A stretch of 64,000 nucleotides of DNA from Natronobacterium gregoryi SP2. GTDB lineage: Archaea > Halobacteriota > Halobacteria > Halobacteriales > Natrialbaceae. The notes under the pieces were generated by a model, which was not told the DNA's origin, ran no database searches, and saw only the letters and a program-made list of their open reading frames with translations. Shown one piece after another: positions 61,600 to 63,947 of the stretch (its first letter is position 1; every line of letters starts with the position of its first letter). Made by a program: the position numbers and the translations under genes. The DNA is taken from assembly GCF_000230715.2 (NCBI RefSeq), contig NC_019792.1:806001-870000 (forward strand), given 5' to 3'.

Positions 61600-62361
61600 T
61601 CAGTCGTCGCCTGCGGAGCCGATCTCGAAGTCCGAATCCACGCGACCGGACGTCCTGTCGGGCGAGACCGACCGTTCGTTCCCGTCTCGGCCCGCTAGCT
61701 GGTCCAGTGCGGTCGGACTCCGGAGAACGAGCGCGCCGACGCCGACGAACAAGATGAGATCCAGATATGTCCCCATGAAGATCCCGGCGAACGACGTCAA
61801 GATCGCGAGGTTCTGTTCCGACATGACGCCGACGATCGGCAGGACGATCCAGACGGTCACCGAGAGATTGCGAAGTTTGCCGTAGAGCAACCGCCGTTCC
61901 CCGCTGACACGCGTTGCCGCCCGGTCGATCGGTCCGACGAGCAAGGCGGCGGCGATCACGATCGAGACAAACACCAGCACGGAGGCGACGGTCGCAGCCG
62001 GCTCCGGGAGGTTCCAACTCGCCAGGACGCTTCCCGGAAGCGCGTTCACTGCGAGGATCAACAACACGGTCAGGTTTCGACTGGCACCCGCGATCGCCCC
62101 GAGTAGCCACGAGACCACCGTAAAGGAGACGAAGTAGCCGAGGAATCTCGCGTGTGGGTACGCCGCTCCGTCCGCCGTCGTGGTCAGGATCTCGTTTGCC
62201 ATCATGGTATTTGCGACCGCCATCACGAGACAGGCACCGGCGACGGCGAGCCCGTACCGTCGTCGCCCCGACGGATGCTGGAAGCTCCAGCCGAGGAACC
62301 CGATCGTCGCCAGACCGAACAGCCCGGCAAACGTCCAGTACAAGACGAGACCGTCGATCAT
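61600..62361 (-). CDS. Sensory-rhodopsin-II-like seven-helix protein lacking the retinal lysine
   Basis: A 253-residue seven-TM opsin-family protein, collinear with Natronomonas pharaonis sensory rhodopsin II up to helix G (numbers coincide). Conserved are Arg72 (HARFLGYF), the E-F loop/helix F region YGKLRNLSVTVWIVLP (Trp171, Pro175), Thr189, and helix G Tyr199/Asp201 (GTYLDLILFVGVG). The Schiff-base lysine position 205 is Phe (codon TTC), position 75 (counter-ion Asp) is Gly, 76 (Trp) is Tyr, 178 (Trp) is Gly and 174 (Tyr) is Leu. Retinal therefore cannot be bound in the normal way. An acidic cytoplasmic tail follows helix G. It overlaps the transducer gene (ATGA), so the two are coupled. 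Confidence 0.88.
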   Translation of the reverse strand: MIDGLVLYWTFAGLFGLATIGFLGWSFQHPSGRRRYGLAVAGACLVMAVANTMMANEILTTTADGAAYPHARFLGYFVSFTVVSWLLGAIAGASRNLTVLLILAVNALPGSVLASWNLPEPAATVASVLVFVSIVIAAALLVGPIDRAATRVSGERRLLYGKLRNLSVTVWIVLPIVGVMSEQNLAILTSFAGIFMGTYLDLILFVGVGALVLRSPTALDQLAGRDGNERSVSPDRTSGRVDSDFEIGSAGDD

Positions 62362-63947
62362 GCACCACCACCCCCACTCGGCGACTCGAGGACATCTGGC
62401 GTCGTCTCATCCTCGGCGGCGAAGACGTCGAGCGTACTCGTGAGTTGCTGTGCCTGCTGGTCGAGTGCGCGTGACTTGTCCGACACCTGTACCGCGGTCG
62501 CGGCCGTCTCCTCTGCGGCGGCAGCAACCTCCTGGGAGTGTTGGGTCGTCTCCGCCGAGACCGTCGTGACCTCGTCGACGATCGTCGCGATCTCGGCCGC
62601 AGAGTCGGCCTGGTCGCCTGTCGCGTCGTCGATCGACTTGAGCCCGTCGTTGACCCAGTTGATCCCGGTCGTGATCTCCTCGAGTTGGTCCTGGAGATCG
62701 TCGATCGTCGCTGCAGTGTCGGTGATTCGCTCGTCGACGGCTTCGATCTCGTCGGCGCTCGTTACCGCTCGCTGCTGAATCGACTGGAGGGTCGTCTCGA
62801 CATCCTCGACGGCGTTTTGTGTCTCCTGTGAGAGGTCCTTGACCTCCTGGGCGACGGCACCGAAACCGGAACTGTTTCCGCCCGCGCCCGCAGACCGGGA
62901 CGCCTCGATCGCCGCGTTGACGGCGAGCATGTTGGTCTGCTGTGCGATTTCGTCGATGAGCGTGATTATCTCCTCGATCCGTTCGGCTTCCTCGTTGAGT
63001 CGATCGATCGTCTCGACGACCGCTTCGGTCGTCGACACCGACTGCTGGATCTGTGACTGTGCCTCGGCTGCAGCGTCTCGTCCGTCGTCGGCGCGGGCCA
63101 CGACACGGTCGGACCGATCGGCAATCTCGGACGTCGTCGACGCCACCTCCTCAGTCGTCGACGACAGCGACGTGACTTCGTCCGAGGCGAGTTCGAGAGC
63201 GTCCGTCTGTCGGCTCGAGCCGTCCGTGATCTCCTGTATGCCCTCGGAGACGTCGGCGTTTGCCTCCTGGATCTCGTTGGCCGAGAGCTGTAGTTCGGTC
63301 GAAGTTTCGTCCAGCGTTCGTGCGACCGTCTGGCCCTGTGCGACGAGCGCCTCTATCTGGTCGACCATCTCGTTGAACGAGTCGGCGATCGCTGCCATTG
63401 CCTCGTCGTCGGTCTCGGGCTCGAGCCGTCGCGTGAGGTCGCCACTCGCACAGACGGCCATCACGTCGGAGAACCGGTCGGCTTCCGCGAGCAACTGCTC
63501 GTTTTGTCGTTCGGCCGTTTGCTGGGCCTCGCGAGCACGTTCTCGTTCCCGGTCGAGGTCCGTAAGCGTCGTCTCGAGCGAGTCGCGCATCTCCGCAACC
63601 GACCCGTACAGCGTCCCCACCTCGTCGATCCGTCCGGTCTCGAGGTCGACCTCGAACTCGCCGTCGCCGATACGTTCGGTCTTCGTGCTCAACTGCCGGA
63701 GTGCCAGTGCGATGTTTCCGCCGATCACGATTCCGACGATCGCGAGATGGACGACGAAGATGACGAGCAACGACGCGATCGCCGCGATCGCCCGGTCTTC
63801 CAGTGTCTCACCAGTTCCATGAACGACGTGTCCAGCGAAAAACGCCCCCAGGCCGAGTGTCAACGCGATCACGAACACGAGGATCGAGGCCGTCTTGACG
63901 CTAAACCGGCGGCGTATCCTATCTGGAACGAATACTCTTCCTTTCAT
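62358..63947 (-). CDS. HtrII-like two-TM methyl-accepting transducer
   Basis: A 529-residue signal transducer. TM1 (SILVFVIALTLGLGAFFAGH), a very short outer loop and TM2 (LLVIFVVHLAIVGIVIGGNI) resemble the short HtrII of N. pharaonis. Two HAMP-like segments follow (TERIGDGEFEVDLETGRIDE; FSDVMAVCASGDLTRRLEPE), then a long coiled coil with the signalling tip EIAQQTNMLAVNAAIEASRS. At positions matching HtrII Glu43 and Asn74 this protein has His40 and His67. No ligand-binding outer domain exists, so input should come from the opsin-like partner. The ATG at 63945-63947 follows a TATA-like GTATAC by about 22 nt. Confidence 0.9.
   Translation of the reverse strand: MKGRVFVPDRIRRRFSVKTASILVFVIALTLGLGAFFAGHVVHGTGETLEDRAIAAIASLLVIFVVHLAIVGIVIGGNIALALRQLSTKTERIGDGEFEVDLETGRIDEVGTLYGSVAEMRDSLETTLTDLDRERERAREAQQTAERQNEQLLAEADRFSDVMAVCASGDLTRRLEPETDDEAMAAIADSFNEMVDQIEALVAQGQTVARTLDETSTELQLSANEIQEANADVSEGIQEITDGSSRQTDALELASDEVTSLSSTTEEVASTTSEIADRSDRVVARADDGRDAAAEAQSQIQQSVSTTEAVVETIDRLNEEAERIEEIITLIDEIAQQTNMLAVNAAIEASRSAGAGGNSSGFGAVAQEVKDLSQETQNAVEDVETTLQSIQQRAVTSADEIEAVDERITDTAATIDDLQDQLEEITTGINWVNDGLKSIDDATGDQADSAAEIATIVDEVTTVSAETTQHSQEVAAAAEETAATAVQVSDKSRALDQQAQQLTSTLDVFAAEDETTPDVLESPSGGGGA

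Follow-up and report, generated by a model that had tools for sequence, protein, structure and literature searches.

The window, a stretch of 64,000 nucleotides from Natronobacterium gregoryi SP2 (NC_019792.1, positions 806,001 to 870,000), carries two minus-strand genes for an HtrII-like transducer and an opsin-like receptor (Table 1). The ATG of the receptor gene overlaps the stop codon of the transducer gene by four bases (ATGA). The pair is flanked by an aminotransferase gene and, at its other end, by a gene for an alpha/beta hydrolase; neither is a chemotaxis gene. The transducer matches the Pfam families HAMP (1.4e-13) and MCPsignal (1.9e-30), and with its two transmembrane helices and its homology to NpHtrII of Natronomonas pharaonis it qualifies as HtrII-type. 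The Htr2 transmembrane domain (PF17909) is not listed for it at E values up to 1; its phmmer match to NpHtrII is strong. The receptor matches Bac_rhodopsin (E 1.5e-7, 31.5 bits versus a cut-off of 24.6) and aligns with NpSRII in a single register through helix G (E 1.8e-12). Its AF2 model, built from eight sequences, has seven helices and a pLDDT of 79.9, being weak near residues 181-200, and the best PDB match of this model is NpSRII 3qap, with a TM-score of 0.87 normalised to the target.

Table 1. Genes, domains and interface residues of the receptor-transducer pair; coordinates are positions in the window.
Feature	Position	Strand	Basis or detail
HtrII-like transducer, 529 aa	62358..63947	minus	ORF; Pfam; NpHtrII match
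Transducer architecture			two TM helices; HAMP residues 75-125; MCP signalling domain 291-463
Lys-less opsin (ORP), 253 aa	61600..62361	minus	Pfam; NpSRII match
Transducer His40 (NpHtrII Glu43), TM1	63828..63830	minus	codon CAC
Transducer His67 (NpHtrII Asn74), TM2	63747..63749	minus	codon CAT
Transducer Gly76-Gly77 (NpHtrII Gly83-Gly84)	63717..63722	minus	kink before HAMP
Receptor Thr189	61795..61797	minus	identical in NpSRII
Receptor Tyr199	61765..61767	minus	
Receptor Phe205	61747..61749	minus	replaces the retinal lysine (K205F)

In the SRII/HtrII complex, receptor Tyr199 contacts transducer Asn74, and Thr189 contacts Glu43 and Ser62 (PMC3274258, PMC6798134). The double change T189V/Y199F lowers NpSRII/HtrII binding about 100-fold, and the equivalent Thr and Tyr substitutions enable BR and HR to bind HtrII (PMC3274258). 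A preliminary description of the window had placed His40 and His67 at the positions of Glu43 and Asn74 and had taken the following Gly-Gly to be conserved. Both assignments are confirmed. A phmmer search against the PDB aligns the N-terminus of the transducer with NpHtrII (4gyc_B, E 1.3e-22), with gaps confined to the extracellular loop and none inside TM1 or TM2, and a MAFFT alignment of 38 short-transducer rows gives the same correspondence for His40, His67 and Gly76-Gly77. The alignments thus support a location of the histidines at the mapped contacts. The window pair shares with the N. pharaonis pair its fold, Thr189, Tyr199, the order TM1-TM2-HAMP-MCP, the Gly-Gly kink and the arrangement in one operon, but has His/Ala/His in place of Glu/Ser/Asn at positions 43, 62 and 74 (NpHtrII numbering), and its receptor lacks the retinal lysine, the counterion and the Tyr174-Thr204 relay. 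The description had also read the histidines as a coordinated change to titratable residues at the receptor interface. In this pair, however, only the transducer side is altered, as Thr189 and Tyr199 are retained.

The same description held that the receptor cannot use light, and this view is borne out by the absence of the retinal lysine and of most of the pocket. The counterion is lost (D75G), as are most pocket residues (W76Y, F127S, W178G) and both partners of the relay (Y174L, T204L). One might still imagine a photoreceptor that holds another, non-covalent chromophore, with an interface adapted to that photocycle, in a genome that possesses both a canonical Lys-bearing SRII/HtrII pair (Glu43/Asn74) and a retinal-forming BCD (brp/blh-like) gene. 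This is highly improbable, as these substitutions and K205F together abolish lysine, counterion, pocket and relay, and the two related opsin-related proteins tested bound no retinal (PMC4915679).

The window receptor and its transducer belong to a class published in 2016, the opsin-related proteins (ORPs) (PMC4915679). The receptor is a type 1 opsin homologue without the retinal-binding lysine, and it groups with Lys-less rather than Lys-bearing haloarchaeal opsins. Becker et al. described 48 ORPs, which made up close to 30% of the haloarchaeal opsins in their survey, and proposed that they sense something other than light; many of the genes lie beside HAMP/MCP genes, and most of those tested are transcribed (PMC4915679). 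A non-light stimulus, already proposed family-wide in that work, is possible for the window receptor too. The authors reported four unique ORP genes in N. gregoryi SP2, and the window genome likewise carries four Lys-less opsins. With group B of that paper the window receptor shares its descent as a Lys-less relative of the sensory opsins, a hydrophobic residue in place of the lysine, the residues Tyr199, Leu174 and Gly178, and an adjoining transducer gene. Asp189 and Tyr199 are described as conserved in ORPs (PMC4915679); the window receptor keeps Tyr199, but it has Thr189 where most ORPs have Asp, and also Asn51. Since Thr189 occurs in 6 of the 61 ORP pairs surveyed below, Asp189 is widespread among ORPs but does not define them. 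In its main text, the 2016 paper treats receptor residues, not the transducer contacts 43 and 74.

These contacts were compared across 391 genomes from the class and 125 from the family. A genome scan with the receptor alone as query recovered no relatives; a 13-row alignment was too diverse as a query, and a 5-row alignment gave 7 loci. Altogether, 96 opsins could be paired with adjacent transducers, 61 of them Lys-less and 35 Lys-bearing, with one weak TM1 assignment among the latter (L115). Position 43 is His (44), Tyr (13) or Asn (4) beside Lys-less receptors, and Arg (17), Glu (11), Gln (4), Asp (2) or Thr (1) beside Lys-bearing ones, so that the two residue sets do not overlap in any of the 96 pairs. 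As His, Tyr or Asn occupies this position in every Lys-less pair and in no Lys-bearing pair, His40 is a family signature. Receptor position 189 is Asp in 49 Lys-less pairs, Thr in 6, Gly in 4 and Asn in 2, and is Thr in the majority of Lys-bearing pairs. The commonest ORP combination is accordingly Asp189/His43, which replaces the Thr189/Glu43 of SRII; one Lys-bearing receptor combines Asp189 with Glu43, and all four Asn43 transducers face Gly189. His74 is found in 18 of 61 Lys-less pairs and 0 of 35 Lys-bearing pairs, Asn being the residue at 74 in most pairs, while Tyr199 is Tyr in 96 of 96. The idea that the histidines are special to the window pair is contradicted by these counts: His43 and His74 occur together in 12 pairs, and solely the triple combination His43-Thr189-His74 is confined to the window pair within the set.

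The placement of the histidines is not due to chance. In the transmembrane columns of 58 distinct ORP-linked transducers, His occurs at column 43 (41 sequences), column 74 (18) and column 45 (1) and nowhere else, and columns 43 and 74 hold nearly all polar residues of these helices. In 34 transducers beside Lys-bearing opsins, His is absent from both columns. The closest relative of the window pair, and the only close one, is in Halopiger goleimassiliensis (receptor 71% and transducer 65% identical). Conservation of the histidines in this one orthologous pair is divided, as His74 is kept but position 43 is Tyr; the receptor has Thr189. Other species of the window's genus among the searched genomes hold no equally close receptor copy, the best reaching 45% identity.

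Three further groups of pairs were observed in the survey. The Natrinema/Haloterrigena type (L046-L076, L125-L129) comprises Arg205 ORPs that mostly keep Asp75, Tyr174 and Thr204. Its HtrII-type transducers have a periplasmic domain and share His43, often His74, and Gly-Gly with the window transducer, but they differ by about 220 extra extracellular residues, and the receptors by Arg205 and, mostly, Asp75 and Asp189. No Pfam domain was found in this insert in the two tested. The loci L083, L099, L101 and L102 hold Lys-less opsins with His205 and long transducers downstream of the receptor, with Asn43 facing Gly189; this group fits neither the group A nor the group B description of the 2016 paper, and L211 (Halorientalis marina) appears to belong to it. 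Lastly, L134-L142 and L156-L162, of the same order, are Lys-bearing sensory rhodopsins whose transducers carry Arg43, Gly74 and Gly-Ser at 83-84, and these transducers represent a third interface type.

In a FastTree phylogeny of 131 opsins the Lys-less receptors form one branch, inside which the window receptor and its 71% relative are sister to a group-B-like clade (0.998). Because these receptors form a single branch, the perfect split at position 43 may amount to one or two events, possibly a single early change, and does not count as many independent cases. The transducer tree shows 8 changes at residue 43, among His, Tyr and Asn, and 4 at residue 74, between His and Asn. A single clade of His74 carriers was rejected (AU p 4e-35); a scenario of one early gain and two subsequent losses needs no more steps than one of three gains. 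In APC-corrected mutual information over all pairs, 43-189 ranks 30 of 11,970 inter-protein pairs, and no transducer column scores higher with receptor 189 than 43 does. Within ORPs the rank falls to 388 of 11,856, and low-power tests on independent pairs are not significant for 43 versus 189. The independent-pair test for 74/51 likewise has low power. Receptor positions 188, 192, 195 and 203 track His74, in a manner inseparable from shared ancestry. The exchange of Thr189/Glu43 for Asp189/His43 is therefore strong as a pattern, yet the statistics give only weak proof that the residues compensate for each other. That the loss of light sensing led to a contact rewritten as a reversed hydrogen-bond or charge pair, serving as a docking code that tells blind from seeing receptors within one cell, with a proton-sensitive His74 added in the window lineage, is an unlikely combination.

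The exchanges of His, Tyr and Asn at 43 (8 changes) and of His and Asn at 74 (4 changes), together with the many ORPs without an adjacent transducer, might also be taken as drift, in which the loss of light sensing freed both positions from any special role and left a complex that is marginal or non-functional. We consider this unlikely. The set of residues accepted at two transmembrane positions is narrow and hydrogen-bonding, Tyr199 and the Gly-Gly motif are invariant in ORP pairs, and both reading frames are intact and 65-71% conserved in the ortholog.

The preliminary description had further suggested a pH- or ligand-gated coupling, a reading that is weak. In its pH form, protonation of His40, His67 or both would alter the coupling between receptor and transducer and produce a pH-sensitive chemoreceptor. 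His40 and His67 are indeed the sole titratable residues in the transmembrane bodies of the window transducer, and a proton link is conceivable within the Asp189-His43 pair that many ORPs have. However, 13 of 61 ORP pairs have Tyr instead of His43, as does the nearest ortholog, and most pairs have Asn74. Carriers of His43/His74 include Natrinema, which belongs to the neutral-pH genera, as well as Natronosalvus, so the histidines are not tied to alkaline habitats, and their presence in Natrinema argues against a switch for alkaline lakes. Moreover, an outward-facing histidine with an ordinary pKa should stay uncharged at soda-lake pH at all times. As His43 is the common ORP-linked state and the facing receptor residues are unchanged, the proposal lacks support, and we regard a pH gate as very unlikely.

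Of the six opsins encoded in the genome, four lack the lysine. Its three HtrII-type transducers have different residue pairs: Glu43/Asn74 in the SRII partner, His/His in the window and Tyr43/Asn74 in an orphan. The orphan, an ORP-type transducer (L166:274-1902, on the minus strand of contig C1, with its end at about 3,107,150), has Gly-Gly, is 55% identical in its N-terminus and lacks a neighboring opsin gene. The three further Lys-less opsins, without adjacent transducers, lie at L010:4212-6414 (C1 2,432,298-2,434,218) and L009:3702-4571; two are neighbors on one strand, and residue 189 is Gly, Ser and Gly. The orphan transducer is a possible partner of these unlinked ORPs. The genome also encodes two CheA proteins, CheW and CheY, which could receive a signal. 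A broken CheA had been suspected from a stop inside the CheW match; this was rejected, as the CheA frame is intact.

On balance, we favor, with a probability of roughly 0.6, the reading that SRII/HtrII-type docking is retained through different hydrogen-bonding residues, which would serve stability and partner specificity in a system that probably responds to a stimulus other than light. The two genes would encode an SRII/HtrII-type complex, as predicted from their homology, whose receptor no longer binds retinal covalently. Docking very probably still involves helix G of the receptor and TM1 and TM2 of the transducer, and helix movement would travel along TM2 and across the Gly-Gly kink into HAMP and on to CheA; the stimulus is probably not light. 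Residue 43 would have become His (or Tyr or Asn) early in the ORP-linked transducers, with Asp189 in place of Thr189 in most receptors, so that one hydrogen-bonding pair may have been swapped for a pair with the polarity reversed. The receptor of the window lineage has Thr189, and in this lineage His74 could still hydrogen-bond to Tyr199. We infer that the histidines most likely stabilise the complex and keep it separate from the other transducers of the cell, a role for which a pH switch would not be required. Three co-resident transducers with three residue pairs would fit such partner specificity.

Judged from sequence comparison, the histidines are mostly family traits, more suggestive of a re-tuned docking code than of a dedicated pH switch. 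Neither the signature of the transducer at position 43 nor its association with Asp189 appears to have been described in the literature searched. The signature (His, Tyr or Asn versus Glu, Asp, Arg, Gln or Thr) provides a simple marker of ORP-type transducers, orphans included, and helps to assign receptors to them. It further points to the residues with which to ask whether ORPs signal through the SRII docking site.
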